A DNA stretch of 64,000 bases from positions 16,386 through 80,385 of the IMG/VR virus record IMGVR_UViG_3300005541_000007; one strand, written 5' to 3'. Made by a program: the position numbers and the translations under genes. The DNA is from a virus. The notes beneath the pieces are model-generated. The model saw only the letters and a list, made by a program, of their open reading frames with translations. It was not told the origin of the DNA and made no database searches. Below are positions 755 through 62,154 of this stretch, in pieces. Each line of letters begins with the position of its first letter. Positions within the stretch are counted from its first letter, which is position 1.

Positions 755-2491
755 GTGCGTATTCCTTCAGCAGCACAAATAGTAATTACCGGTAATACTT
801 CAGGAACTAATCAATTAATTCCAGTTGAATTATTGACGATTGCCGGTGGACCCAATGTTACGCTTAATCAAAGCGGTAATTTAATATCTATTAGTGGTCC
901 TTCTGCTGGTGGTGCTGGAATTCTTAGTGTTTATAATGTAGGACAAACTACAGGACAATCCTCTAGTTCTACAATTAATGGTACTGCTGTTTCATTAGAT
1001 GGTGCTGGTGGTGTTTCTGTTGGTATGTCCGCTGGTTCTATTGTTATTTCTGGTGCTACTGGTGGCGGTGGCGGTGGAGCAATGTCTTGGTATGGTCTTG
1101 GTAATACTACTCAAAATAGTTCCACAACCTTATCCGCAAATTCAATTTCACTTGATGGACTGGGAATTATTTCTGTTGGTTATAGTAATGGATCAATTCA
1201 AATTAGTGCTACCACAGCACAAAGTAATCAAACTGAAGGAAATTATTTTGTAGGTAATACAACAGGGCAAAGTTCATCATCTACTATAGATGCACGTTCT
1301 GTTTCTGTTTCTGGTTTAGGCATTGTTAGTGCTGGAATGTCGGCAGGAATGATGGTTATTTCAGCTACTACAGCAGCACAATCTAATCAATCATTAGGTA
1401 TTTATAATAGTTCAAATACAACAGGGGCAACTACTTCATCAACCTATGACGCAAGAAGTTTATCATTTGTTGGTTATGGCGCAGCATCAGTAGGACAATC
1501 AAATGGATCAATACAAATATCTGTTAATGTGGGGGCACAATCAGCACAAACATTAGGTATTTACGCTAGTTCACAAACCACAGGGCAATCTTCTAGTTCT
1601 ACTATAGATGCACGATCTATGTCTATCGTAGGACAGGGAATTATAAGTGCTGGATTATCTGCTGGCGCTATTTTAATATCCGCTACTACTGCTGCACAAT
1701 CTAATCAAACAGAAGGAAATTATTTCTTAGGTAATACTACAGGACAATCATCTAGTTCTACTATAGATGCTAGAAGTGTATCAGTTTCAGCACTTGGTCC
1801 TATTAGTGCAGGTATGTCTGCTGGTGCGATGGTAATTTCTGCTCCATCTATTTACACAGCATCACAATATCATTGGCCCAATGATTTATTAGATGTAGGA
1901 AATTCCTATGCTTTTGGAAATATAGAAATAAATTATATACCTCTTCCTGTTTATGTATCTGGTACACAAGCATGTATTTATGCCTCATTATCTGCCGTAA
2001 GCACAACAGGAACATTATCATTTAATGCATTATTTAATGCTAGTATTATGATTTATACTAGAAATGCTTCAACCTTAAGCAGTGTATCTTCTGCCAGTCA
2101 ATCATTTTTAATTTCATGGCAAAATAATTCTACATCTTCTATGGGTGGAGCAAGAGAATTTTCCTTTCCTTTAAATATTAATGCTTCTCCTGGTGACTAT
2201 TGGGTTGGTATCGGAATAAATACTTCTACTACACGAGCAGTAAATCCTATAGGTGCTAATATTTTAGTTTCTACAATAGGAGCAGGAACTATTTCTGCAC
2301 AGTATAGAAATGCTTTAGCTGTTTCTGTTGGAACAGTCATTACTAGTACAAATCAAATTATACACGGTGTTGGAGAATACTCTGTTAGTACTGCTGCAAT
2401 TCCTACAGCAATATCAATGACACAAATTACTGCTACAACTGCTGTAGGTTCTGCTCCGGGTAATTTCCATATTGCTCTAAAGAATTGGTAA
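755..2491 (+). CDS. Repeat-rich tail fibre or receptor-binding protein
   Basis: This 578-residue, Gly/Ser/Thr-rich protein starts at GTG and follows a -10 box without a ribosome binding site. Residues from about 58 to 375 are six imperfect repeats of about 53 residues. They are built on NTTGQSSSSTIDARS, a G-rich turn, a SAG or SNG motif and a short hydrophobic strand ending in VIS or QIS. The unique C-terminal domain (about 380-578) is predicted beta-rich and is the likely tip. Such repeats are typical of trimeric beta-structured phage fibres. The neighbours are a glycosidase-like protein upstream and a glycosyltransferase downstream, so it may bind or be modified with glycans. Fibre identity is inferred from composition, repeats and position. 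Confidence 0.6.
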   Translation: MRIPSAAQIVITGNTSGTNQLIPVELLTIAGGPNVTLNQSGNLISISGPSAGGAGILSVYNVGQTTGQSSSSTINGTAVSLDGAGGVSVGMSAGSIVISGATGGGGGGAMSWYGLGNTTQNSSTTLSANSISLDGLGIISVGYSNGSIQISATTAQSNQTEGNYFVGNTTGQSSSSTIDARSVSVSGLGIVSAGMSAGMMVISATTAAQSNQSLGIYNSSNTTGATTSSTYDARSLSFVGYGAASVGQSNGSIQISVNVGAQSAQTLGIYASSQTTGQSSSSTIDARSMSIVGQGIISAGLSAGAILISATTAAQSNQTEGNYFLGNTTGQSSSSTIDARSVSVSALGPISAGMSAGAMVISAPSIYTASQYHWPNDLLDVGNSYAFGNIEINYIPLPVYVSGTQACIYASLSAVSTTGTLSFNALFNASIMIYTRNASTLSSVSSASQSFLISWQNNSTSSMGGAREFSFPLNINASPGDYWVGIGINTSTTRAVNPIGANILVSTIGAGTISAQYRNALAVSVGTVITSTNQIIHGVGEYSVSTAAIPTAISMTQITATTAVGSAPGNFHIALKNW

Positions 2492-2494
2492 TCA

Positions 2495-2524
2495 TTGACT
2501 TTTATAGTTAGTTTAAGGTATAGT
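2495..2524 (+). promoter_or_regulatory. Sigma70-type promoter with leaderless start
   Basis: TTGACT (2495-2500), an 18-base spacer and TATAGT (2519-2524) form a near-consensus promoter. The ATG of the glycosyltransferase follows seven bases after the -10 box, so the mRNA would begin at or beside the start codon. Confidence 0.7.
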
Positions 2525-2531
2525 AATTTAT

Positions 2532-3260
2532 ATGACCAAACCACAAATCTTAATGCCTAATGATTGTGGGATACATAATTCTAATCTAGAAAACTCAACT
2601 ATTAGATTAAATAAAACTAAACTTTATGATAATATTTCAACTATTATAGTTGTTCCTACTCGTGGTGGTCCTTCTTTAACGCCTAGATGGGTAACTTGTT
2701 TAAATAATCTAATGAAACCAATGAATCAACAAATTTTTGGTCCTATGTTTCTTAGTGGAATGGAGGTTGGTGTTGCTTATAATGAGGCAATTCAATCTAT
2801 TTTTAATAATCCTGTATTAAATACTTGTAAATATATGCTTACGTGGGAGGATGATGTTCTTCCTCCACCTGACGGATTATTAAAATTGTATGAAGGAATG
2901 GATAAATTTGATTGTATAGGCGCATTATATTGGACAAAAGGTGAAGAAGGACAACCTATGATTTATGGCGATATTAATGATCCTGTAGTAAATTTTAGAC
3001 CACAGTTACCACAATCAGAGTGTTTACAACGTACATATGGATTAGGTATGGGATTTAATTTATTTAAATTAGATATATTTAGAAAGTTAGAATATCCCTG
3101 GTTTGAAACCGTACAACGTTGGGATGCAAATACAGGTGCAGCACAGTGGACTCAAGATTTAAGTTTCTTTCATAAAGCAGGAAGAGAAGGATTTAAATTT
3201 GCTTGTAATACTAAAGTTCGTGCGGGACATTTTTCCCATGAAACGGATATAGTTTGGTGA
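2532..3260 (+). CDS. Glycosyltransferase, GT-A type (paralog 1)
   Basis: This 242-residue protein has the features of a family 2-like, GT-A fold glycosyltransferase. It has an N-terminal strand with TIIVVPTRGG, then WEDDVLPPPDGLLKLYEGM with the acidic EDD motif (about residues 106-108) that normally binds the metal and sugar nucleotide. A later Trp/His-rich acceptor region (QWTQDLSFFHKAG) follows. It is clearly paralogous to the gene at 4869-5636, including the MKPMNQ, GPMF and YPWFET segments. It is flanked by a fibre gene and a methyltransferase. The acceptor is unknown: virion protein, host surface glycan or DNA base are all possible. It is the first gene after a promoter with leaderless geometry. 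Confidence 0.75.
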   Translation: MTKPQILMPNDCGIHNSNLENSTIRLNKTKLYDNISTIIVVPTRGGPSLTPRWVTCLNNLMKPMNQQIFGPMFLSGMEVGVAYNEAIQSIFNNPVLNTCKYMLTWEDDVLPPPDGLLKLYEGMDKFDCIGALYWTKGEEGQPMIYGDINDPVVNFRPQLPQSECLQRTYGLGMGFNLFKLDIFRKLEYPWFETVQRWDANTGAAQWTQDLSFFHKAGREGFKFACNTKVRAGHFSHETDIVW

Positions 3261-3263
3261 TAT

Positions 3264-3827
3264 ATGGAAAAAAAGATTAAAAAGAAAATTGAAAAAATTA
3301 AAGAACCTCTTCGTGTTAAACTTGGATGCGGCCAAAATAAGGTTGAGGGATTTAAAGGACTTGATATTTGTGATGGAATCGGTGCTGATTGGGTGCATGA
3401 TTTAACAGTATATCCTTGGCCTTTTGAGGATGATTCTGTGGATGAATATTTAGCCGCACATGTATTTGAACATATTCCTGCTTTGCATAGGGGTAAGTTC
3501 ATGGATGAAGTGTGGCGTACACTTAAAATGGGTGCTTCTATTAGAGTAATTACACCGGGGCATATGTGTGATAGAGCATGGCAAGATTACTCTCATATTA
3601 TGCCGCCTATAGTTCCAAGTTCTTATAATTACTTTATGAGAGATTATAGAGAATTTAATAAACTTACACATGGAGTATATGATTTAAAGTGTAATTTCAG
3701 TGTAAGTATTAATGGTGTGGTAGACGGTACATGGATTAATCGTTCTGAAGATGCCAAGCAATTTGCTTCTAGACATTATTGGAATGTTATTAATGATTAT
3801 GATGTAACTATGATCAAAATTCCTTAG
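3264..3827 (+). CDS. SAM-dependent methyltransferase, small class I (paralog 1)
   Basis: This 187-residue protein resembles the short methyltransferases often linked to glycan loci. Motif I is VKLGCGQNKVEGFKGLDI, followed by PWPFEDDSVDEYLAAHVFEHI and an EVWRTLKMGA segment, the usual post-motif order of Methyltransf_11 proteins. The C-terminal part has the YDLKCNF block shared with the paralog at 9220-9753. It starts three bases after the glycosyltransferase, so the two are co-translated, and its substrate may be the sugar that enzyme transfers. The fold is confident; the substrate is not known. Two relatives lie on the opposite strand at 7334-7882 and 9220-9753. Confidence 0.7.
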   Translation: MEKKIKKKIEKIKEPLRVKLGCGQNKVEGFKGLDICDGIGADWVHDLTVYPWPFEDDSVDEYLAAHVFEHIPALHRGKFMDEVWRTLKMGASIRVITPGHMCDRAWQDYSHIMPPIVPSSYNYFMRDYREFNKLTHGVYDLKCNFSVSINGVVDGTWINRSEDAKQFASRHYWNVINDYDVTMIKIP

Positions 3828-3846
3828 ATTTATATTCAAAATAGGG

Positions 3847-3852
3847 TACAAT
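3847..3852 (+). promoter_or_regulatory. -10-like box TACAAT before the ATPase gene
   Basis: GGG TACAAT lies 11 bases before the ATG at 3864. No good -35 or Shine-Dalgarno sequence is visible. The match to the other short-leader promoters is weaker because the spacing is longer. Confidence 0.3.
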
Positions 3853-3863
3853 ATGGCTACAAT

Positions 3864-4865
3864 ATGGACGAATATAGTAGCCTCGTCAACCTTCTTACTT
3901 TTGAATTTAAAGCATGGGTAAATTCTTATAATCTTGAAAACTTAATAGAAATAATTGTAGATTATAATCGTCCTTTAGAGTTAAGATTTACAGATAGAAT
4001 TATTCGTTCTACATTACTTGTAACCTATGCAGATATTGACTATATTCTACAATCTTCTAATTTAAGTCAATTTAGTTCTGATAATCGTGCAGGATTAAAA
4101 AATACCTTACATAGAATTTCTGTATTAAGAAATAAAAATAATAGAATTATAGGACTAACTATGCGTATCGGACGTAATATTACGTCAACTGTACCTCTAA
4201 TTGCAGATTTATTAGATGATAATAAATCTATATTATTTATTGGAAAACCGGGTACCGGAAAAACCTCATTTGTAAGACAAGCAGCATGTTACTTATCAGA
4301 TTTTTCTGAAAAACGTGTAATTATTGTAGATACTTCATGTGAAATTGCGGGAGATAATGATTATCCACACGAATCTGTGGGTTCTGCTAGAAGATTGATG
4401 GTCAAAGATCGTGAACATCAAGAGCAATATTTACTTGAAGCAGTTCAAAATCATTATCCTGAATACATTATTGTAGATGAAATTTCTACTAGAAAGGAAG
4501 CCGATAGTATTTGTTCTATTGCAGAACGCGGTGTAAAAGTTATTGGAACTGTACATGGTAGTGATTTTATTGGTGTTTTAAACAATTATAAGATTAATAG
4601 TATCTTAGGTTCTGTAGAAAAAGTTGTAATTACAGATGAAAATGCTAAGAAAAATGATGGAGTAAAAATTAAAACTGAGCGTAGATCAATACCGCCTTTT
4701 GAAATTGTAGTTGAACTTCTAGCATTTGATAAAATAAAAATCTACTACAATACACAAGAAACTATAGATACTTATCTTACAGAAAAAAGTATCTCATATG
4801 AACTACGTACACTAAAAGATGGTGAAATGTATTGCAAATTTATCTCGGGTGAGGTATTATCTTAG
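3864..4865 (+). CDS. Ycf45/SpoIIIAA-like AAA+ ATPase
   Basis: This 333-residue protein matches the plastid/cyanobacterial Ycf45 and SpoIIIAA ATPase family. Walker A is GKPGTGKT (127-134), followed by RVIIVDTSCEIAGDNDYPHE and then GSARRLMV. Walker B is YIIVDEIS (201-208), followed by AERGVKVIGTVHGSDF. The C-terminal segment (RRSIPPFEIVVE) also fits the family. The nucleic acid-binding R3H domain found in many cellular Ycf45 proteins is not visible. The gene sits between the methyltransferase and the second glycosyltransferase, four bases ahead of the latter. The family is an unusual passenger in a phage structural/glycan region and its job here is unknown. I am confident of the family, not of the function. 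Confidence 0.75.
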   Translation: MDEYSSLVNLLTFEFKAWVNSYNLENLIEIIVDYNRPLELRFTDRIIRSTLLVTYADIDYILQSSNLSQFSSDNRAGLKNTLHRISVLRNKNNRIIGLTMRIGRNITSTVPLIADLLDDNKSILFIGKPGTGKTSFVRQAACYLSDFSEKRVIIVDTSCEIAGDNDYPHESVGSARRLMVKDREHQEQYLLEAVQNHYPEYIIVDEISTRKEADSICSIAERGVKVIGTVHGSDFIGVLNNYKINSILGSVEKVVITDENAKKNDGVKIKTERRSIPPFEIVVELLAFDKIKIYYNTQETIDTYLTEKSISYELRTLKDGEMYCKFISGEVLS

Positions 4866-4868
4866 GTA

Positions 4869-5636
4869 ATGTCAGCAGAAATTTTCATGTCTCATTATGA
4901 TAATGAGGGATATTTTAATCATGGACTAAGAGAACCTACAAATCTTAATGTATTTCAAACCACTAAAGAGTACCGTGATTTATCTACTATTATTGTAACT
5001 CCTACTAGAAAAGGAAATTCCATATCTTCTAGGTGGATGGGATGTTATCTTGATTTGATGAAACCAATGAATCAAAAGGTTTTTGGTCCTATGTTTATAG
5101 TCGGTATGGAAGTAGGAGAGGCTTATAATGAGGCTATTAAGCGTATCCTTAACCATGATATTCTAAAAAATGTTACTTATTTAGTCACTTTAGAAGATGA
5201 TGTTCTTCCTCCACCAGACGGATTATTAAAGTTATATGAAGATGTTCAACACTATGATGTAGTTGGAGGACTCTATTATTCTAAGGGGGATTTTGGTTGG
5301 CCTATGATTTATGGTGATGTATCACAAAAAGAAATAGGTTGGGCACCACAAGAACCAAAAAGTTTTAAAGAGGGGGAAAATACATTACAAGAGTGTTATG
5401 GATTAGGTATGGGATTTAATATCTATAAAATGGATATATTTAAAAAAATGGAATATCCTTGGTTTGAAACATTGCAACATTTTGATAAAGATTTAGGCGT
5501 GCAAGGTATGACCCAGGACCTCCACGCCTTTCAGCAAATGTACAAGGCAGGTTATAGGTTTGCATGTGATGTGTCATTAAAGTGCGGACATTTTGATGCG
5601 AATGGTGGAGACAGCGGTTTAGGGTTTACCTGGTAA
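4869..5636 (+). CDS. Glycosyltransferase, GT-A type (paralog 2)
   Basis: This 255-residue paralog of the gene at 2532-3260 has the same domain order: TIIVTPTRKGN, MKPMNQKVFGPMF, the acidic LEDDVLPPPDGLL motif (EDD at 109-111), GGLYYSKGD, and YPWFETLQHFD followed by a Gln/His-rich end. Conservation of EDD in both copies suggests that both are active. The two enzymes may add successive sugars or differ in acceptor. The start codon is three bases after the stop of the ATPase gene, so translation is coupled. A promoter for the next gene begins just after its stop. Confidence 0.75.
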   Translation: MSAEIFMSHYDNEGYFNHGLREPTNLNVFQTTKEYRDLSTIIVTPTRKGNSISSRWMGCYLDLMKPMNQKVFGPMFIVGMEVGEAYNEAIKRILNHDILKNVTYLVTLEDDVLPPPDGLLKLYEDVQHYDVVGGLYYSKGDFGWPMIYGDVSQKEIGWAPQEPKSFKEGENTLQECYGLGMGFNIYKMDIFKKMEYPWFETLQHFDKDLGVQGMTQDLHAFQQMYKAGYRFACDVSLKCGHFDANGGDSGLGFTW

Positions 5637-23648: not shown

Positions 23649-24578
23649 TTGAGCGATACACTCAAAGGATATGCGTCTGCAACACAAGTAGCTAATTTTA
23701 TGGGGATAGTCCCAAATACAGCTAACTTAGCGCAAATAACAACATATCTTGGAGTAGCAGAAGAATTAGTAGAAAATTATTGTCAAACAACTTTCTTACA
23801 AGAAATTGGCGGTAATACTTCCGATCTAGCATCAACTCAAGCTTCTGGTTGGTTAGTAGTAACATCAGCAACTTATACATTTCAACCAACAGATGTAGGA
23901 CAATTTATTCGTATTGTATCAGGAACTAATTTTACTCCTGGGGTATATTTAATTGCTTCTGTAGCAGGAGGAAATGCAACACTTTCAACTGCGTGTGGAA
24001 CTACTGGAAATGCATCATCCGGTACATGGCATGAAAGTGTAAATAAGATTTTTAGTGGACATGGAAATACTACAATTTTCCCAGGTTTATATATTCAAGA
24101 TGTACTTGCTATGAATCTTCTTGATATTGATGGAGTATCAGTAATCTATACTTATATTATGAATACTGATATAACACTTAAACCAGATACACCATTAAAG
24201 ATTGCAAGTACACCAGTTTATAGATGGATTGAAAGAAAATATTATAGCGGTGGAAGTTTTGGACAACAAGGCGGCGATCAATCAGGAGTAACACCGTATT
24301 CTGTAACTCCTATCTTTATTCAAGGTTCGCAAAATATTCAAGTATTTGGAGTGTGGGGATTACCACAAATTCCTGATACCATTGTTTACGCCATATGCGC
24401 CACTGTACAGAATATGTTTAGGGCCATAGGAATTAATCCATTTATTAAATCAGAGGGCGCATACGGGCGTTCTGTGGTCTTTAATGATACAAATGATTTT
24501 GAAATGATTCCTCCAATGGCTCAAAGACTCTTGGACCCTTGGGTGAACAAAGCGATCTTCAACACCGATGGATTTTAA
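23649..24578 (+). CDS. Head-tail connector protein with inserted beta domain
   Basis: The 309-residue protein starts at TTG with CGGAG upstream. Residues 1-57 (YASATQVANFMGIV, LGVAEELVENYCQTTF) look like the helical start of an HK97 gp6-type connector, and the frame resumes after residue 131 with a beta region and the helical PDTIVYAICATVQNMFRAIG. Between them lies one copy (about 58-130) of a 75-residue module with DVGxxI, GTNFxxGxY and ACGTTGxxxSGTWxE. The same module occurs in the tail tube, the tail-tip protein and a small tail protein. The connector ring joins portal and tail. Its identity rests on position and helical pattern. Confidence 0.65.
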   Translation: MSDTLKGYASATQVANFMGIVPNTANLAQITTYLGVAEELVENYCQTTFLQEIGGNTSDLASTQASGWLVVTSATYTFQPTDVGQFIRIVSGTNFTPGVYLIASVAGGNATLSTACGTTGNASSGTWHESVNKIFSGHGNTTIFPGLYIQDVLAMNLLDIDGVSVIYTYIMNTDITLKPDTPLKIASTPVYRWIERKYYSGGSFGQQGGDQSGVTPYSVTPIFIQGSQNIQVFGVWGLPQIPDTIVYAICATVQNMFRAIGINPFIKSEGAYGRSVVFNDTNDFEMIPPMAQRLLDPWVNKAIFNTDGF

Positions 24579-24580
24579 AA

Positions 24581-24622
24581 ATGTCTGCTACACCTATTTT
24601 AACTTCATCAGGTTGGTTTTAG
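24581..24622 (+). pseudogene. Stub of the N-terminus of the gene now starting at 25712
   Basis: ATG at 24581 opens a 13-codon frame, MSATPILTSSGWF, closed by TAG one base before the TnpB start. The intact gene downstream of TnpB begins MITPLLSTSSSWF. The two share the TPxL, SS and WF positions, and the DNA is also alike. The simplest reading is that TnpB entered at this codon and the target gene received a replacement 5' end. Confidence 0.55.
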
Positions 24623-24623
24623 T

Positions 24624-25712
24624 ATGATTAATTATCAACTTAAATTAAAACTTACTAAATATCAGGAACAACAATTAGAATCCTGGTTACCAATACTTAC
24701 CTCTATTTGGAATTGGACTATAAGAAAAATTGAATTAGATGCTAAAGATAATATATATTATAATAGTAAATTTGATTTTGTAAATTTATTAGTAAATCAT
24801 AGTGAAAAATTAGGAGTATCTAGTCATACTATGATGTGTACTACTATGACTGCATATAATTTATACCAACAATATATAAAGAAAAAATGTGGTAAACCTA
24901 AATTTAAAGGACAAAGAAATAAACTTAATAGTATTCTATTTCCAGATATTATTAAACAACCACAAAATAATAAAATACAATTACGAGTAATAGGTAAAAT
25001 TAAGTATCATAAACAACAAATACCTGAAGGTAATATTAAATGTGTAAGAATTATTAAAAAAGTAAGTGGTTGGTATGCAGTATTAACTATAGATACTAAA
25101 CCTAAAAAAATATCTATTATTAGTAATAATAAAGTAGGAATTGACCCAGGATTTAAACATTTACTTACACTATCTAATGGTGATAAAATTGAACATCCTC
25201 GTGAATTTGAAATTAATGCGGAACGATTAGCACAAGCACAACGCGGGCATAATAAGAAACTTGCTGCTATAATTAATGAAAAAATTGCTAATCAACGAAA
25301 AAACAGAAATCACAAACTCTCTAGAAAATTAGTAAGTGAAAATGAATTAATAGTTTTTAGTAAAGATAATCATAAAAATGTTGCTAAAAAATTTGGTAAA
25401 TCTGTGTCCTCTTCAGGACATTATCAACTTCAAAAAATGTTAGAATACAAGTGTCGTACAGACGGTAGGCAATACATAGAAGTTGATTGTAAGTTTTCCA
25501 CCATGACCTGCTCTACCTGTAATGCTCGTACCGGGCCTACAGGTTGGGAAGGCTTGAAGGTAAGGAATTGGGAGTGTACAGAGTGTGGAACTTTACATGA
25601 TAGAGACATAAATGCCGCTATCAATACGCTTAATTCCGGGCTTGGAATAAGCCACGAGAATACCGTGAAAACGGAAATACAGAAAACTAGTAATGAATGG
25701 GGTAATATTTAA
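24624..25712 (+). CDS. tnpB: TnpB-like RNA-guided nuclease (IS200/IS605 OrfB family), no TnpA
   Basis: The 362-residue protein has a TnpB layout. It has an N-terminal helical wedge, RuvC motif I VGIDPGFKHLLTLSNG (D174), a zinc ribbon CSTCNARTGPTGWEG and CTECGTLH (C296, C299, C318, C321), and the final HDRDINAAINTL (D328). The second RuvC strand reads ELIVFSKDN where classical TnpBs have a catalytic Glu in IxIEDLN; the position holds Ser246. Glu241 lies five residues earlier. It could be one of the TnpB groups with a rearranged active site, or a nuclease-dead form. No TnpA or clear IS end is visible. It is inserted between connector and head-closure genes. Confidence 0.85.
   Translation: MINYQLKLKLTKYQEQQLESWLPILTSIWNWTIRKIELDAKDNIYYNSKFDFVNLLVNHSEKLGVSSHTMMCTTMTAYNLYQQYIKKKCGKPKFKGQRNKLNSILFPDIIKQPQNNKIQLRVIGKIKYHKQQIPEGNIKCVRIIKKVSGWYAVLTIDTKPKKISIISNNKVGIDPGFKHLLTLSNGDKIEHPREFEINAERLAQAQRGHNKKLAAIINEKIANQRKNRNHKLSRKLVSENELIVFSKDNHKNVAKKFGKSVSSSGHYQLQKMLEYKCRTDGRQYIEVDCKFSTMTCSTCNARTGPTGWEGLKVRNWECTECGTLHDRDINAAINTLNSGLGISHENTVKTEIQKTSNEWGNI
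25636..25680 (+). ncRNA. Possible omega RNA scaffold within the tnpB 3' end
   Basis: The last part of tnpB is less AT-rich than the rest and folds locally: GGCTT/AAGCC (25639-25653) and CCGT-GAAA-ACGG (25663-25674) with a GNRA tetraloop. In TnpB systems the guide scaffold overlaps the 3' end of the gene and the guide follows. Here the next gene starts on the last base of the TnpB stop codon, so any guide would lie within coding sequence. Confidence 0.35.
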
Positions 25713-26143
25713 TGATTACACCACTATTATCAACTAGTAGTTCATGGTTTGAAAATGTCACTTTTAATGTAATAGATTTAGTGTACCAAGTTTTAGATAT
25801 GCACAGTGTTCCGAGTAATACAGTTGTATACTCAGGGTTAGTAGGACATTTACAAAATGCACAATTTAGTAAAGAAGGGCAAGCAGATAAAGAAAGAAAT
25901 AGAACTTCACCGTGGATATTAACAGTAACTACTCAATATGATTTACAAATGGGACAATTTATAGTAATTACAAGTGTTAAGAATGCTTATGGTATGTGGA
26001 TTGCTAGTACCCAACCTTACGAACAATTCAAAGTAGATTTCCTCAACGCGTCATTTAGTAATTCAAACGAGAAAATTCTTAGATTATCGCGTAGGGATGC
26101 TGTGGCGAATACTAGTAACACTGCTGATGGAGTAATAAATTAA
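25712..26143 (+). CDS. Head closure or neck protein (putative)
   Basis: This 143-residue protein begins on the last base of the tnpB stop codon (TAATG). The beta-rich body (SPWILTVTTQYDLQMGQFIVI) with a flexible polar C-terminus and its place between the connector and the gp10-like gene fit a head-closure or head-tail adaptor. The first 13 residues resemble the stub upstream of tnpB, so the present N-terminus was probably supplied with the insertion. No named family was recognised; the role is based on gene order. Confidence 0.55.
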   Translation: MITPLLSTSSSWFENVTFNVIDLVYQVLDMHSVPSNTVVYSGLVGHLQNAQFSKEGQADKERNRTSPWILTVTTQYDLQMGQFIVITSVKNAYGMWIASTQPYEQFKVDFLNASFSNSNEKILRLSRRDAVANTSNTADGVIN

Positions 26144-46350: not shown

Positions 46351-47810
46351 TTAACGAGAATTTTGCTAGATTACTACGTCATGTAATTGATGTAGATGGT
46401 TCTTTAGTATCTGATTGCTATTATACTGTATTTAATTCTCAACTTAAAGAAGAACATTTTCAATTCTTTGATTTAAAAGATAATGTATTTGATATAACAG
46501 CAGAAAGTCTAATCTTTCGTGCAGCTAAAAATCTATTTGATCGCTATAATAATCCTTGTACTATTGATACAATTGCAGAAGAAGTCAATAAAGAACAAAA
46601 ATTACTTGCTAGTGAAAAACAAGATGTAATAGATGCACTTAAAGATATTTCTGAATATGAAGCAAATCCTAATGAAACTAAGTATTTACTAGAACTTGTA
46701 TTAGAAGATTATAAAGATTCAAGACTTAATCAAGTATTTCAAACTGCAATAAAACTAAAGGAAAACAATCTTGAAAAGTCAATCAATTATTCTATTAAAA
46801 CATTAGCAGAACTTAAACAGCTAGGAAATTCTATAAATAATGATGATCCTGCTACTATTTCATTAAAAACAGCATCAGAAACACTACTTAATAAAATAGA
46901 ACAAGGAAAAGAATTAGTAGAATTTGCATGTCACTATGGCGTGAATGAAATTAACCAAAGATTAGACGGTATTAAAAGAAGAGAATATATTGTACTGTGT
47001 GGACCGGCTTCAGCGGGCAAGTCATTTTTATCACAAGAATTTGCATATCAAGCAGCACTTAATCAAAATAAACGAGTTGTAATAGCCTCTACTGAAATGA
47101 ATACTGAAGATATTTTACTTAGGCTAATGTCTAGGCTTACTAAAATTCCTTCACGTAAATTACAACGTCCTGACACATTAACACCAGAAGAATTAGAACG
47201 ATTTAAAGTTTGTATTACAGAATTTCAGAAAGAAGAATTTAATGATAGATTAATCTTTGTACAAAAAGGTAAGTTTTCTACAATAGAACAACTAAAACAA
47301 ATTATCCTTCAACAATTAGGAGATAAACAATTAGATTTACTTGTACTTGACTATATTGAAAATTTAATTCCATCGTTTAAAACTGGTAGTCAACAATGGG
47401 AACAAAAGAACGCTATTTCACAAGAGTTTAAGCATTTACTTGATGAATTAAATTGTGGGGGTATTACTCCTGCGCAAAATAATGCAAGAGGTATGGTTAA
47501 TGGTGGTAACGGTGCAGGTATCGGAGAAATATCATTTAAACAATTATATAAAGATGCAGATACATTCTTAATGGTATCAGAAGATGAAACTATTCCACCA
47601 GGACCGCCAGCATCATTTGATTTGCCGGGAACACCTGGAATTATTTATCTAAACGTAATTAAAGGAAGAAACGTCGCAAAAGGTGGAGAGAAAATTCCTC
47701 TCACATGTGAGTTTTCCACTGCCTCTATATCAGCAACAGGACAATTACAAACTACAACAACAGTTAAAGAACAACGTCGCAGCCGTATGGAGAAAAAAAA
47801 TTATGACTAA
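46350..47810 (+). CDS. Replicative DnaB-like helicase with probable AUU start
   Basis: The C-terminal half is a RecA-like SF4 helicase: Walker A GPASAGKS (about 218-225), VVIASTEMNTEDILLRLMSR, Walker B LLVLDYIENL (about 331-340), then QEFKHLLDELN and GEISFKQLYKDADT. A GTG at 46941 would give only this domain. The same frame is open back to 46347 and encodes a 197-residue helical N-terminal domain (FFDLKDNVFDITAESLIF, NLFDRYNNPCTIDTIAEEV) like the DnaB N-domain, but with no ATG, GTG or TTG. ATT 46350 lies seven bases after AGGA and overlaps the HIRAN stop. I place the start there. The helicase unwinds DNA at the fork. Confidence 0.75.
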   Translation: MNENFARLLRHVIDVDGSLVSDCYYTVFNSQLKEEHFQFFDLKDNVFDITAESLIFRAAKNLFDRYNNPCTIDTIAEEVNKEQKLLASEKQDVIDALKDISEYEANPNETKYLLELVLEDYKDSRLNQVFQTAIKLKENNLEKSINYSIKTLAELKQLGNSINNDDPATISLKTASETLLNKIEQGKELVEFACHYGVNEINQRLDGIKRREYIVLCGPASAGKSFLSQEFAYQAALNQNKRVVIASTEMNTEDILLRLMSRLTKIPSRKLQRPDTLTPEELERFKVCITEFQKEEFNDRLIFVQKGKFSTIEQLKQIILQQLGDKQLDLLVLDYIENLIPSFKTGSQQWEQKNAISQEFKHLLDELNCGGITPAQNNARGMVNGGNGAGIGEISFKQLYKDADTFLMVSEDETIPPGPPASFDLPGTPGIIYLNVIKGRNVAKGGEKIPLTCEFSTASISATGQLQTTTTVKEQRRSRMEKKNYD

Positions 47811-47985
47811 AAAAGAATTACAAGAAGCGTATCAAATGGCATTAGATTGTATTGAAGAACAACAAAGACAAATATCTTTGAAAGATATTACAATTGAGAA
47901 CCTTGAAAGAGAATTAGAGGAAGTGGAAGATAAATATTTTAATGCGTATACATTAGTAGATAATTGTCATAAACCTGAATTTTAA
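47803..47985 (+). CDS. Small coiled-coil protein
   Basis: This 60-residue protein starts at ATG 47803 behind GGAGAAAA; a longer frame to 47683 lies within the helicase gene and is spurious. The sequence (EEQQRQISLKDITIENLERE) is a coiled coil. It overlaps the helicase stop by eight bases and abuts the zinc-finger primase gene. Confidence 0.55.
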   Translation: MTKKELQEAYQMALDCIEEQQRQISLKDITIENLERELEEVEDKYFNAYTLVDNCHKPEF

Positions 47986-48480
47986 ATGAAAAAGAAAGAA
48001 ATTGAAAACACTCCATTCGATAAACCACTATTTGAAGACATTATTAACTTATGTGATTTAAAAGAAGTAGAGTTTCATCCATATTCAGCATCACCATATA
48101 TTACTGCATGTTGTCCTTTTCACGATGACCATGCCCCGAGCTTTATCATATTTCAAGAAATTCAACAATGCCATTGTAGAACATGTCATACAGCCTACAT
48201 GGATGTAATTGCTTTCTGGAAATTATTAAAGAATAGAAGTTTTGCACAAACTGTTAAAGATATTTGTAAACCAACTACGGTTGAATCTTCTTTAATTAAG
48301 AAACTAAATAAACCTAGATTAATTTATGTAGACCTAGCCTTCCTAGCCCAACGTGTAAGAAAAGTGTGGTCTACCGTAGACTTTGATAGCGGGGTTAGGG
48401 TAGTATCTGAAGTGCTAAGACTGCTACAGGAGGAAAAATATTCTCTTGTAGAAAAGTTATTAGTAAGGAGTGGAATTTAA
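47986..48480 (+). CDS. CHC2 zinc-binding domain of a split DnaG-type primase
   Basis: This 164-residue protein starts right after the coiled-coil gene. Residues about 25-85 match the DnaG zinc domain: CCPFHDDHAPSFIIF (C43, H46) and CHCRTCH (C64, C67), then YMDVIAFWKLL. This domain reads the template and sets primer initiation. The polymerase core normally fused to it is absent and is found instead at 61603-62154. The C-terminal half is helical and unassigned. It sits next to the replicative helicase, its usual partner. Confidence 0.8.
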   Translation: MKKKEIENTPFDKPLFEDIINLCDLKEVEFHPYSASPYITACCPFHDDHAPSFIIFQEIQQCHCRTCHTAYMDVIAFWKLLKNRSFAQTVKDICKPTTVESSLIKKLNKPRLIYVDLAFLAQRVRKVWSTVDFDSGVRVVSEVLRLLQEEKYSLVEKLLVRSGI

Positions 48481-55206: not shown

Positions 55207-55269
55207 ATGACTTCAGAAGAAATTAAATCACTTATCGACGCCTTGAAAGCTGAGCCATTAGATGAATAA
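55207..55269 (+). CDS. Leader-type small protein (20 residues)
   Basis: ATG 55207 opens a 20-residue frame beginning MTSEEIKSLIDALKAEP and its stop overlaps the GroES start region by eight bases. It may be a small peptide that couples translation to groES. Upstream lies AGAGAA as a weak ribosome binding site. Confidence 0.4.
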   Translation: MTSEEIKSLIDALKAEPLDE

Positions 55270-55555
55270 CTACCGATTATTAGAAGATCAGGTTTTAGTA
55301 GAGCCCGATGATTTTAAAACTACTACCGATTCAGGAATTATTATTGTAAATCAATATCAACAAGCATTCCCGTCTAAAGGCACGGTTATAGCAACAGGCC
55401 CAGGTAAACTTTCCAAGAAGGGATTACTACTACCAATGGATGTTAAAGTGGGGGATAAAGTACACTTTGATAAGTATGGACTTAATGAAAAAGAACTTAA
55501 TGGAAAGAAAATGCTCTTTATGGATCAAAATAAAATTTTATTGGTAGTTGAATAA
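55262..55555 (+). CDS. GroES-like co-chaperonin
   Basis: The 97-residue protein has the family length and pattern: NYRLLEDQVLVEPDD, then TTTDSGIIIVNQYQ, GTVIATGPGK, VKVGDKVHFDKYG and NKILLVVE. GroES caps the GroEL cage, and phage versions such as T4 gp31 replace the host cap to fold large capsid proteins. No GroEL gene is present, so the host chaperonin would be the partner. The mobile loop (DFKTTTDSGIIIVNQ) lacks the usual Gly-Gly-Ile, with Ser-Gly-Ile instead. It has its own promoter and leader. Confidence 0.9.
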   Translation: MNNYRLLEDQVLVEPDDFKTTTDSGIIIVNQYQQAFPSKGTVIATGPGKLSKKGLLLPMDVKVGDKVHFDKYGLNEKELNGKKMLFMDQNKILLVVE

Positions 55556-57102: not shown

Positions 57103-57393
57103 ATGACTATTTGGAAATATAAAGTTCCTATTCAGGATGAATTTAGTATTGAATTGTACGAAGGATATAAAATCCTATCAGTTCAAACACAAGGAGCAGA
57201 TCAACAATTTGGAGGACAAACAGAAGGAGTTTATATTTGGGTATTACTTGATCCTAATGCTAATCCTGTAACAGTTGAATTTAGTTTGTACGGTACAGGA
57301 CATAGAATTGAAATGTTAAATGAACAAGAATTTATTGGTACATTTCAAATGCTAGATGGACGATTAGTATATCATTTGTTTAAATGCTTATGA
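57103..57393 (+). CDS. DUF7352-like small phage protein
   Basis: This 96-residue protein matches a common phage family: WKYKVPIQDEFSIELYEGYK at the start, ILSVQTQGADQ, WVLLDPNANP, YGTGHRI, FIGTFQMLDGRLVYHLF at the end. The function of the family is unknown. AAGGAGAA precedes the ATG. It is coupled to the next gene by an ATGA overlap. Confidence 0.65.
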   Translation: MTIWKYKVPIQDEFSIELYEGYKILSVQTQGADQQFGGQTEGVYIWVLLDPNANPVTVEFSLYGTGHRIEMLNEQEFIGTFQMLDGRLVYHLFKCL

Positions 57394-57680
57394 AACCACT
57401 ACAAGAATTAATTAATAATTACGTTTTAAAAAATTTAAAACTTGAAGATAATAAAACAAAGAAAAAATTTGAAAAGGCGGTAACTTTTGAAGTAAATTTC
57501 GACTATGAAGAGGGAGCGCAATATAGCGAATATACTCGTGATAGTGGGTATGCTTATCTATCAGCGAGTGGATATGATGCAGAAAATACGTATTTAGGAG
57601 ATTTTAAAATAGATAATATTATGTATAGATCATTACAAAATTTTCTAAAAGAATTATTTGAACTAGAAGATGAAAATTAA
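57390..57680 (+). CDS. Hypothetical protein
   Basis: This 96-residue protein starts at ATG 57390 in an ATGA overlap (57384 would add two residues). It has a basic helical start (ELINNYVLKNLKLEDNKTKK), an acidic beta middle and an acidic end. It overlaps the following short frame by 11 bases. Unknown function. Confidence 0.5.
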   Translation: MKPLQELINNYVLKNLKLEDNKTKKKFEKAVTFEVNFDYEEGAQYSEYTRDSGYAYLSASGYDAENTYLGDFKIDNIMYRSLQNFLKELFELEDEN

Positions 57681-57825
57681 ACTAGAACACGTTCAAGAAC
57701 TTATACTTGAACTTTCACTTTTAACAGAAAATAATAAAGAATCTCCTAGAATTAATGAAATTAAAAATCCAACCGTTAAAACTACAAGTTTACTTTGTAC
57801 TATGCTGGAAGATAATGAAAAATAA
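57670..57825 (+). pseudogene. Truncated copy of the N-terminus of the gene at 58485
   Basis: A 51-residue frame beginning MKIKLEHVQELILELSLLTE. The gene after the GIY-YIG endonuclease begins MKTRIDDLRDNIVLLAFLTE, matching at M, K, I, L, LTE and with conservative changes at most other positions. The short frame then loses similarity and overlaps the endonuclease start. It looks like the displaced 5' end of the gene invaded by the endonuclease. Confidence 0.5.
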
Positions 57826-58504
57826 TATTCCTACAAAATCAGGAATATATCAATGGAGAAATTTAATAGATGGTAGAATTTATGTAGGTTCTGCTTTAAA
57901 TTTTAGACAACGTAATTATTCCCATACTTCAGATTTAAATAGAAATAATCATAAAAATCAATATTTACAAAATGCATGGAATAAGTACGGTAAAGAGAAT
58001 TTTGTATTTGAAATTTTAGAATATTGTGCATCTACTTTTCTATTAGGTAGGGAACAATATTATATAAATTCATTAGAAGTAATGTATTATCAAAAAGGAT
58101 ATAATATTGCTCCACAAGCAGGAAGTAATTACGGTTTAAAATTTTCAGAAAAAGGAAGAGAAAATGTAAGTAAAGGACGTATCGGCAATAAAAATAGATT
58201 AGGAATACCACATACAGAAGATGCTAAAAAATTAATTAGTGAAAAAACTACGGGATTACCAAGTGCGTTAAAAGGCACAAAATTATCAGAAGAACACAAA
58301 GAAAAAATAAGTAGGCATTTAGAAGGAAATCAGTATGCAAAAGGATATAAACATTCTGATGAAACACGAGAAAAATTGCGCCAAGCTGCGAAAAATCGTG
58401 ATCCAGGAAAAGAAGCTTTAAGAAGAGAACGTTTAAGTTTAGCAACTAAAGGAAAACCTTGGTCAGCAGCAAGGAGAGCAGCACATGAAAACAAGAATAG
58501 ATGA
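57815..58504 (+). CDS. GIY-YIG homing endonuclease with NUMOD3-like repeats
   Basis: A 229-residue protein from ATG 57815; a longer frame to 57755 runs through the upstream stub. The nuclease domain shows GIYQWRNLIDGRIYVGSALN (GIY 10-12, YVG 23-25), arginines RQRNYSH, and NAWNKYGKENFVFEILE. The C-terminal half has DNA-binding NUMOD3-type segments (HTEDAKKLISEKTTG, LSEEHKEKISRHLEGNQY, HSDETREKLRQAA). Free-standing enzymes of this type cut an allele lacking them and spread by repair. It overlaps the upstream stub and the downstream gene, consistent with recent insertion. Confidence 0.85.
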   Translation: MKNNIPTKSGIYQWRNLIDGRIYVGSALNFRQRNYSHTSDLNRNNHKNQYLQNAWNKYGKENFVFEILEYCASTFLLGREQYYINSLEVMYYQKGYNIAPQAGSNYGLKFSEKGRENVSKGRIGNKNRLGIPHTEDAKKLISEKTTGLPSALKGTKLSEEHKEKISRHLEGNQYAKGYKHSDETREKLRQAAKNRDPGKEALRRERLSLATKGKPWSAARRAAHENKNR

Positions 58505-59126
58505 TTTAAGAGATAATATAGTTTTATTAGCCTTTTTAACCGAGGATAAACAAGATGAAGAAGGTATTAAAAAATTAAAAGAAATTCGATTAGATATTCA
58601 GGATAATTTTAGAGAATACTATAATGCACTTCTTAGAAATGAACTTCAAGAAATTGAAAGTATAACAGATATATCATTTCATCAATACTCTGAAATAGAC
58701 ATTAATTGTACTATTCCAAATATTCCTCAACACGAGTTAAATAGAGAAACATTAGAAAAAATAGACCGTGAACTTGTAAAATCATACAATAGTATTAGCG
58801 GAGCGTATGCTGAATCAAAAGCAATATTAACTAATTGGACTTCAAAATTAGATAGATGTGAAAGAATTTTCCGCGCCCTCACAGGTTTTCAAACCGCTAC
58901 TAAATCAAAAGCACTTTTTGATGCTACATTAAGTAGAACATTAACGCAAAGATATGATGAACTATCTTATTATGTAACATTATTTGAACAGCGTATTAAA
59001 GGATTGGTAACTACAAAGGAACTACTAGGACAAATGGTTCAACTCTATATTTCAGATATTAAAAACGAGAATTTTACATCAAAAAGCGGACTAAAAACTC
59101 ACGAAACTAGACATTTTGGACACTAG
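58485..59126 (+). CDS. Hypothetical helical protein interrupted-and-restored by the endonuclease
   Basis: This 213-residue protein is mostly helical (EGIKKLKEIRLDIQDNFREY, SKLDRCERIFRALTGFQTAT, RYDELSYYVTLFEQRIKGLV). No motif is recognised. It starts within the last 20 bases of the endonuclease, and its first 20 residues resemble the stub at 57670. It lies just before the SSB/RecA genes, so a recombination accessory role is possible. Confidence 0.55.
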   Translation: MKTRIDDLRDNIVLLAFLTEDKQDEEGIKKLKEIRLDIQDNFREYYNALLRNELQEIESITDISFHQYSEIDINCTIPNIPQHELNRETLEKIDRELVKSYNSISGAYAESKAILTNWTSKLDRCERIFRALTGFQTATKSKALFDATLSRTLTQRYDELSYYVTLFEQRIKGLVTTKELLGQMVQLYISDIKNENFTSKSGLKTHETRHFGH

Positions 59127-60544: not shown

Positions 60545-61646
60545 ACCAAAGAAATCAGCGGAGGTTGCACTGCAAAGTGTGGCCTCCGAATTAAAAGGAA
60601 TCGCAGGATTCTCTACAGCTACTTCGGTATTAAAACCAAAAGAGTTTATTTCAACCGGGTTTGATTCACTTGATGAAATGCTTTATGGTGGATTCCCCTT
60701 GCGTAAAGTAATTCATATCTCAGGTAATCCCTCACAAGGTAAATCTCTAATGTGCTATAGATTGACTGCTATGGCACAGAGACAGTATCCGAATAAATAT
60801 GTGGTCTATGTAGACACTGAATATTCTTATGACGCTGATTGGGCAACTAGACAAGGAATTAATAATTCTCAAGTCTTACTTGTACAAAATAATATTGCAG
60901 AAGAAACGCATAAGAAGATTGTAGACGCTATTAAATCAGACAAAGTTTCAGCAGTAATTCTTGATTCAGTGGGTAATGAACAAATTGAATCACAAAGTTG
61001 GATAGCTGAAAAGAGAAATATTCAACCAGGACAATTTGCTAAAGCTATTAAAGCATTGATGCTTGATGTAGTTCCGCTTATTCACGAAAAGGATGTATGC
61101 TTTGTAACTACAAATCAAATTTCTTCTAAAATAGGGGGCAATAATTACGGTCCAACCACAGATAATCCTGGTGGACATAATCTTAAACATAATATCCAAC
61201 TTAATCTTTCGCTTAGAAAGATTGAAGATGTATTAGACTCTTCTACTAAAGAAATTATTGGAGTTAAAGTTGCTGTTACGGTAAATAAGATTAAATATGG
61301 AGTAGTTTCTAAAACAGATGAATCAAACCATCCAATTTTTTATAATGATAATGGAATTGAGAAAGCTAGAGTATTAAATCTTTATGATGATGCGGTAAGA
61401 GCAGATATTGTAACAACAGGTACTTGGATTAAGGTACAAGATAAAAATCAAAATGTTTTGCTTAGAATGCAAGGACTTAATAAATTTAAAGAAAGATTTT
61501 TAGAACCAGAATTTTATAATGCAATCAAACAACTTATCAATGGATCAACCACGGTGGAGTTACCACCAGAGCCTATTACGGTCGCCAAAAGCAATGCAGG
61601 AAATGAAGAAGAGGAAAATCTCTCTTCCGACGATGAAGAAGTTTGA
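60537..61646 (+). CDS. RecA/UvsX-type recombinase
   Basis: This 369-residue protein has the RecA core: FISTGFDSLDEMLYGGFP, Walker A GNPSQGKS (63-70), VVYVDTEYSYDADWATRQG, AVILDSVGNEQ (Walker B), CFVTTNQISSKIG and a later Lys-rich segment. It forms filaments on ssDNA for strand exchange, phage recombination and recombination-dependent replication. The C-terminus is acidic (EEEENLSSDDEEV), a common regulatory tail. The primase core gene starts within it in another frame. Confidence 0.85.
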   Translation: MSRPKKSAEVALQSVASELKGIAGFSTATSVLKPKEFISTGFDSLDEMLYGGFPLRKVIHISGNPSQGKSLMCYRLTAMAQRQYPNKYVVYVDTEYSYDADWATRQGINNSQVLLVQNNIAEETHKKIVDAIKSDKVSAVILDSVGNEQIESQSWIAEKRNIQPGQFAKAIKALMLDVVPLIHEKDVCFVTTNQISSKIGGNNYGPTTDNPGGHNLKHNIQLNLSLRKIEDVLDSSTKEIIGVKVAVTVNKIKYGVVSKTDESNHPIFYNDNGIEKARVLNLYDDAVRADIVTTGTWIKVQDKNQNVLLRMQGLNKFKERFLEPEFYNAIKQLINGSTTVELPPEPITVAKSNAGNEEEENLSSDDEEV

Positions 61647-62154
61647 AATAGGCTACTATATTGAAAATGAATTCAATAAGTTCTATGATCGAATAATGTT
61701 TCCATTAAGAGATATTAATGGAGACTTTATTACCCATCAAGGTAGAACACTTGTAGAAGATTTTAAAGCAAAAGGATTAAAGAAGTATCAACACGGTGAA
61801 TACGAGAAAAATAAGTATTTGTATGGTTTATATGATGTTGGGAGATTAATTAAAGAAAAAGGGTATGTAGTTTTAACAGAAGGACCGTTTGATGTGTTAG
61901 CAGCTTATGAGCAAGGTATACCCGCCGTGTCGGGGTTTGGTGTGACGTTTTCAGCCCACCAAGCCATGTTGACAGCGATGTACACTGATAAGGTATACTT
62001 GGCTTACGATGCTGATGAAGCAGGGCTAGGCGGCGCAAAGACAGCTAAAGCTAATTTAAAACCATTTTTACTAAAAGTAATTGATTTGAAACTAAAAAAA
62101 GATCTTAGCGATTTGCATATGGAGGATTATAATTTATGCCAACTAATTTCGTAG
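61603..62154 (+). CDS. Primase RNA polymerase core with TOPRIM fold, second part of a split DnaG
   Basis: A 183-residue protein from ATG 61603 within the recA 3' end; ATG 61633 is an alternative, but the upstream KKRKISLPTMKKFEIGYY matches the DnaG consensus around KRGIS...KKFxLGY, so the longer form is favoured. It continues DRIMFPLRDINGDFI, HQGRTL, KYLYGLYDVG, then TOPRIM: VVLTEGPFDVLAAYEQGIP and VYLAYDADEAGLGGA. It makes RNA primers together with the zinc protein at 47986-48480. The rest of DnaG, including part of the basic subdomain and the helicase-binding C-terminus, is absent. Confidence 0.8.
   Translation: MKKRKISLPTMKKFEIGYYIENEFNKFYDRIMFPLRDINGDFITHQGRTLVEDFKAKGLKKYQHGEYEKNKYLYGLYDVGRLIKEKGYVVLTEGPFDVLAAYEQGIPAVSGFGVTFSAHQAMLTAMYTDKVYLAYDADEAGLGGAKTAKANLKPFLLKVIDLKLKKDLSDLHMEDYNLCQLIS

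Follow-up and report, generated by a model that had tools for sequence, protein, structure and literature searches.

A predicted GIY-YIG homing endonuclease of this virus is flanked by what appear to be two copies of the 5' end of one gene, one old and one new. We interpret it as a homing element that sits in coding sequence near the gene's 5' end and is tolerated there through a fused, diverged substitute end, a reading to which we give a probability of roughly 0.72. The window analyzed here is a stretch of 64,000 nucleotides, comprising bases 16386 to 80385 of the 80,385-base IMG/VR virus record IMGVR_UViG_3300005541_000007. The first-pass annotation of the window had described a 51-residue frame before the endonuclease and a gene overlapping its 3' end, and both frames exist as claimed. 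Its suggestion that the endonuclease stands between an old and a new gene start is supported as well, and the arrangement recurs with TnpB and in independent contigs, in genes for a primase, a DNA polymerase, a head protein, and an integrase. Four frames at the locus form an overlapping chain (Table 1), which lies in a replication module with the DNA polymerase on one side of the 213-aa gene and the RecA and primase genes on the other. The stop of the 98-aa upstream gene overlaps the start of the 51-codon stub by 11 nt, which is the coupled-start arrangement expected of an original gene start, and the AAGGAG of the second start sits 8 nt 5' of its ATG, within the endonuclease coding sequence. 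Judged from these positions, with one start overlapping the preceding stop and the other overlapping the endonuclease, the stub would be the old copy. A near-perfect palindrome within the stub (57691-57712, GTTCAAGAACTTATACTTGAAC), which had been marked as resembling a terminator, may be a binding site or may have arisen by chance.

The N-termini of the stub and of the 213-aa gene (MKIKLEHVQELILELSLLTENNKESPRINEIK and MKTRIDDLRDNIVLLAFLTEDKQDEEGIKKLK) match without a gap up to residue 32 and then break, which would put the insertion point in the stub at about 57766. The earlier claim that the similarity stops after the N-terminus holds to the extent that it does break, but not at residue 20. 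Nine of the 32 residues are identical (28%) and the remainder are mostly conservative, whereas at the DNA level 56 of 96 positions agree (58%; z 5.4). Only 2 of the 24,271 codon-aligned windows in the 80-kb genome reach 56 of 96, including the 213-aa gene start itself, a tie for best (mean, 30; sd, 4.8). Anchored at the two starts, the first 20 residues give a BLOSUM62 score of 36, compared to a shuffle mean of -6.2 (sd, 10.1; z 4.2). When the 700 open ATG N-termini in the genome are compared with the 213-aa gene, the stub ranks first; conversely, when 243 frames of at least 60 aa are compared with the stub, the 213-aa gene does (49, with the next at 38; shuffle p 0.0015). When each gene start in the whole genome was compared with every ATG up to 2 kb upstream, and tandem paralogues and repeat proteins were set aside, the two leading pairs were the stub with the 213-aa gene (37) and the pair flanking TnpB (36). 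On these sequence comparisons, the two N-termini are very probably homologous; homology is likely rather than certain because the identity is only 28% and the pair shows no excess of synonymous change. Both peptides are also helix-forming and alike in composition, which counts against homology, and the pair ranks among the weaker of the cases described here. The stub belongs to no family in Pfam or PHROGs, and tblastn against 50,697 phage records gave nothing significant (best E = 3). We therefore rejected the idea that it is an independent small gene, and the stub family that the first-pass annotation had named as evidence against its own reading was not found in these collections.

The endonuclease most likely starts at ATG 57815 (MKNNIPTKSGIYQW...) and not at the first ATG of its open reading frame (57755). 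The GIY-YIG domain is reached from this start, which lies 11 nt inside the end of the stub. The protein matches PF01541 (GIY-YIG) with 38.6 bits (cut-off, 22.6) and PF07460 (NUMOD3) with 33.6 bits (cut-off, 20.4), the latter in three stretches, and the nuclease residues G10 I11 Y12, Y23 G25 (YVG), R33, E80, and N97 are invariant in alignments. Relatives of this endonuclease are present in 208 phage records.

Table 1. Coordinates of the features discussed (window numbering, except for the last two rows, which use the numbering of the contigs named)
Feature	Position	Strand	Basis or remark
98-aa upstream gene, no assigned function	57384..57680	+	weak PHROG matches only
51-codon stub, putative former 5' end of the interrupted gene	57670..57825	+	matches codons 1-32 of the 213-aa gene; no family
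Part of stub probably homologous to codons 1-32 of the 213-aa gene	57670..57765	+	56/96 nt identical, z 5.4
Predicted GIY-YIG homing endonuclease with NUMOD3 motifs, 229 aa	57815..58504	+	Pfam domains, conserved nuclease residues
AAGGAG ribosome-binding site of the new start	58471..58476	+	read from sequence
213-aa all-helical gene, complete	58485..59126	+	proposed replacement 5' end is codons 1-32, 58485-58580
Stub before TnpB (MSATPILTSSGWF, then stop)	24581..24622	+	second case
TnpB (OMEGA RNA-guided nuclease), 362 aa	24624..25712	+	PF07282, 73.9 bits; PF01385, 36 bits; PHROG 506
Gene restarted after TnpB (MITPLLSTSSSWF...)	25712..26143	+	start overlaps TnpB stop by 1 nt
L096: phage-type DNA polymerase, 59-residue replacement C-terminus, endonuclease, orphan C-terminus	1050-3739		Patescibacteria contig
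L186: integrase with replaced C-terminus, TnpB, orphan C-terminus about 95 nt past the TnpB stop	1797-4038		IMG/VR phage contig

The first-pass annotation had also spoken of the same stub-and-restart architecture elsewhere, and this was borne out by TnpB in the same genome. Its stub is preceded by a head-tail adaptor gene (23649-24578), the restarted gene begins MITPLLSTSSSWFENV, and the Cas12f1-like TNB and OrfB domains of TnpB score above the cut-off. No TnpA transposase was seen beside TnpB (24581-26143). The guide of this TnpB may fall in the first codons of the restarted gene.

The same pattern is found in other genomes. We collected loci with related endonucleases, 80 from IMG/VR, 34 from bacteria and archaea, and some from annotated phages, and at 119 of them the translated flanks of the endonuclease were tested against each other on both strands with shuffled controls. 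Eight of the 119 reached z > 5 in the coding-strand set, three of them with z of at least 19, compared to 7 of 400 control genes on these contigs that do not encode nucleases (about 2%). The strongest of these seven (L095) is an ordinary tandem pair of tail genes, and the others resemble repeats or compositional matches. Verified on the coding strand were L096 (59 residues, z 38.7), L105 (z 20), and L051 (z 19), followed at lower scores by L047 and L052 (z 7; one element on two contigs), the window locus (z 6.2), and L082 (z 5.1), so that only about six distinct events were recognized among the 119 endonuclease loci. L012 was rejected since its downstream match does not lie in the coding frame, and L011 since its frames are not recognizable genes; tail-fibre repeats (L010), L177, and the PRPxGRGF repeats in the vicinity of TnpB loci were excluded as repetitive sequence. 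Among 80 TnpB loci, one further case was found, in an integrase gene (L186, z 16).

These cases fall into two mirror-image types. The 5' type consists of a stub, then an endonuclease gene, and then a complete gene whose start the endonuclease overlaps, as in the window, in a primase gene (L051), and in a phosphatase-like gene (L082). In the 3' type, a gene comes to a normal end right before the endonuclease, beyond which lies an orphan second copy of the gene's last codons, as in a head protein (L047), a phage DNA polymerase (L096), and a zinc-ribbon protein (L105). The C-terminus is replaced only in these three and in the integrase, whereas it is the 5' end in the window, in the TnpB case, and in the primase and phosphatase-like genes. 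The new end overlaps the nuclease gene in the window and in the TnpB, primase, phosphatase-like, zinc-ribbon, and integrase cases; it lies at most 2 nt away in the polymerase and 78 nt away in the head protein. Homologues without a nuclease are uninterrupted where such a break occurs. The stub of the primase (...LLFYCPKCKHHKPK) breaks within a motif that is intact in Flavobacterium phage immuto, whose homologue reads across the break (...CPKCNHHKPKLEVN). In the phosphatase-like gene, the break between the stub (MNTIEINIDFDG) and the restart (...TIECNIDFDGTVVTHD) falls within the DxDGT motif, which is intact in phage PAU (IDFDGTCVTHD). The polymerase is the clearest case of the 3' type, and phage Pfeifenkraut, which lacks the nuclease, has a single polymerase C-terminus. 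For the polymerase and the zinc-ribbon protein, endonuclease-free relatives were sought in their own classes of genomes and none were found.

In these cases the duplicated segment runs from the insertion point to the end of the gene, and in most of them, though not in the GIY-YIG pair of the window, the protein was kept while codons changed. The zinc-ribbon copies share 15 of 18 residues, and different codons are used at 12 of the 14 shared positions where the codon could change; 11 of 13 residues are shared in the head protein (7 codons changed), 9 of 10 in the phosphatase-like gene (6 codons), 16 of 28 in the primase (12 codons), and 35 of 58 in the polymerase (15 codons), although these pairs had been chosen by their protein similarity, which makes the P values of the codon comparisons optimistic. 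Differences that are mainly synonymous suggest that the copies diverged in separately working genes and were joined from separate lineages. In the head protein, GC3 is 0.875 for the orphan tail and 0.79 for the gene body, while it is 0.64 for the replacement end and 0.54 for the endonuclease. This pattern indicates that the orphan tail is probably the native one there, on the small numbers of 16 and 22 codons.

We propose that the endonuclease came from a donor phage in which it stood directly 5' of the gene, with its 3' end overlapping the ribosome-binding site and start of that gene. In a recipient without the endonuclease, the gene would have been cut around codon 33, and repair would have copied in the endonuclease together with the first approximately 32 codons of the donor and joined them to the recipient gene downstream. 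The first approximately 32 codons of the recipient would then be left as the stub, read from the coupled start of the upstream gene, and the gene would now be made from the new start by means of the AAGGAG inside the endonuclease gene. With the old site split by the element and the substitute start diverged, the occupied allele should escape cutting. In the 3' type, the recipient's own end would be left outside as an orphan tail after recombination within the gene. Homing with a replacement end predicts that the duplicated length extends from the break point to the end of the gene, as was observed.

Several other explanations have to be weighed against this proposal. The resemblance could be a coincidence between helical N-termini rich in K, E, and L, with the stub being an unrelated short frame or a leader peptide of the endonuclease itself. 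The identity of 28%, the lack of a synonymous bias, and the AT-rich genome all fit this, as do one unrelated frame with an equally high score across the first 20 residues (38 versus 36) and one unrelated DNA window that ties. Still, chance would have to place at the top of both the protein and the DNA scans of the genome a start-to-start match between precisely the frames on either side of the endonuclease, the TnpB pair is alike in the same genome, and related endonucleases elsewhere show the pattern unmistakably, so we consider coincidence unlikely. A local gene duplication or a decayed neighboring paralogue, with the endonuclease entering later and bringing no gene end, seems to us quite improbable. 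Tandem paralogues do occur in this genome (36223 and 36937) and at the control loci (L095), but in the clear cases only the piece from the insertion point to the end is duplicated, it is fused to the nuclease, and it has diverged under selection at the protein level; a dead leftover would not retain its protein while its codons change.

The overlapping chain of frames is also what would be expected if the stub were a functional leader, of whatever origin, whose translation regulates, through coupling, either the endonuclease or the gene downstream. This would leave unexplained both its likeness to the start of the next gene and the cases of the 3' type, and its probability is very low. GIY-YIG enzymes are often encoded in introns, which counts for a self-splicing intron or a split gene, in which the stub and the 213-aa gene would be exons or cooperating halves, as for mobE in nrdA and mobA in the T4 topoisomerase genes. 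A T4 review does describe endonuclease insertions that split phage genes (PMC2988022). However, Rfam searches gave no match at the gathering threshold or, for 57300-59000, at permissive thresholds up to E = 1, and there is no space for an intron core because the stub, the endonuclease, and the next gene all overlap. Moreover, the downstream part repeats the stub instead of continuing it, both parts being N-termini, which makes this the least probable of the explanations, with only a slight chance of being right. We therefore retain homing with a replacement 5' end as the preferred reading.

The order of events at the window locus is a matter of inference because no close endonuclease-free relative of the 213-aa gene was found in the collections searched, whether by tblastn in phages and IMG/VR, by alignment-based scans with the polymerase and RecA, or by degenerate DNA patterns and in bacterial genomes and the contig with the nearest TnpB. 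Only a distant counterpart was found, in Microcystis phage Mvi-JY20, at the same place right after the polymerase and without an endonuclease (E = 0.024 among 21 proteins). Its N-terminus shows no significant likeness to the stub or to the N-terminus of the 213-aa gene. The fold prediction for the 213-aa gene is a low-confidence helical model (mean pLDDT, 67), and a PDB search with it gave no match below E = 0.001. The DNA polymerase of Mvi-JY20 (L003, 13995-17360) carries an unannotated intein-like insertion (CVRAGTLVETSEG...QGFVHHN), which is absent from the polymerase of the window. In our genome the Toprim-like gene and the RecA gene share 128 nt, and in Mvi-JY20 they likewise overlap, by 44 nt. 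Separate genes encode the replicative helicase, a primase zinc-finger protein, and the Toprim-like primase piece, which lies about 13 kb from the other two (46941-48480 and 61519-62154). Upstream of the window in the same genome (L002, 6092-7885), a papain-like protease is apparently interrupted by an HNH-endonuclease intein (GGHCLGGNTKISLLDGRE...FVHNC), and at 55262-55555 there is a 97-aa protein resembling a GroES co-chaperonin (MNNYRLLEDQVLVEPDDF...), both judged by eye only. Two paralogous PHROG 1574 genes (2532-3260 and 4869-5636) stand on either side of one methyltransferase-like and one AAA-ATPase gene.

The closest match among known systems is the group of gene hybrids of fungal mitochondria, found in atp6 of Allomyces macrogynus and in atp6, atp9, cox2, and nad3 of Glomus (PMC3630166). 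There too, an endonuclease and a diverged copy of a gene end are inserted in coding sequence, the old end lies beyond, and the protein is conserved; compared to a relative, the native end is 91 to 98% identical in DNA and the inserted end 64 to 81% (PMC3630166). The head protein, polymerase, zinc-ribbon, and integrase cases are nearest to this form. The mitochondrial hybrids have a replaced C-terminus. In the window, the proposed replacement concerns the 5' end and comes with a new ribosome-binding site and start; the hosts here are phages, and TnpB is involved as well. In mitochondrial introns of Tremella fuciformis, fragments of the host gene are likewise duplicated, with a length set by the insertion position, and partial replacement of the gene by a foreign copy has been proposed, but these are mostly treated as mitochondrial introns (PMC7315562), whereas splicing is neither needed nor detectable here. 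The Seg family of T-even phages belongs to the same nuclease superfamily, is intron-free, and homes with co-converted flanks. The T-even enzymes, however, are intergenic and act away from their cut sites, and the accessible part of the T4 review, which covers intergenic endonucleases and gene-splitting insertions, describes no leftover or duplicated gene ends (PMC2988022). With mobE in nrdA of Aeh1 and mobA in T4 gene 39/60, the endonuclease also lies within a conserved gene, but both halves are used as separate polypeptides, whereas the downstream gene here regains a full 5' end. The part available of a survey of nuclease boundaries in phages likewise contains no duplicated gene ends (PMC10448857), and we found no phage report of a nuclease with a replacement gene end in the open-licence literature. 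In their logic, engineered HomeR drives are similar, in that they occupy an essential gene that they cut and supply a recoded replacement for the destroyed part, but the phage case is natural and the replacement is short (PMC7968924).

A homing nuclease is commonly assumed to require an intron, an intein, or an intergenic gap if the gene that it targets is to survive, and a spare gene end would be a third solution. This trick has been described mainly in fungal mitochondria, and its occurrence in phages, at either end of a gene and with GIY-YIG as well as TnpB nucleases, suggests a common route into conserved coding sequence. It is possible, but in our view rather doubtful, that prokaryotic viruses harbor a general natural "home-and-rescue" class, including both GIY-YIG and TnpB nucleases, that works without an intron or intein and in which selection favors recoded ends that escape the nuclease. 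Short N- or C-terminal stretches beside phage nucleases may be foreign, and this would affect annotation, phylogeny, and recombination maps. The spare ends of phages would then be a natural parallel to the engineered home-and-rescue drives.
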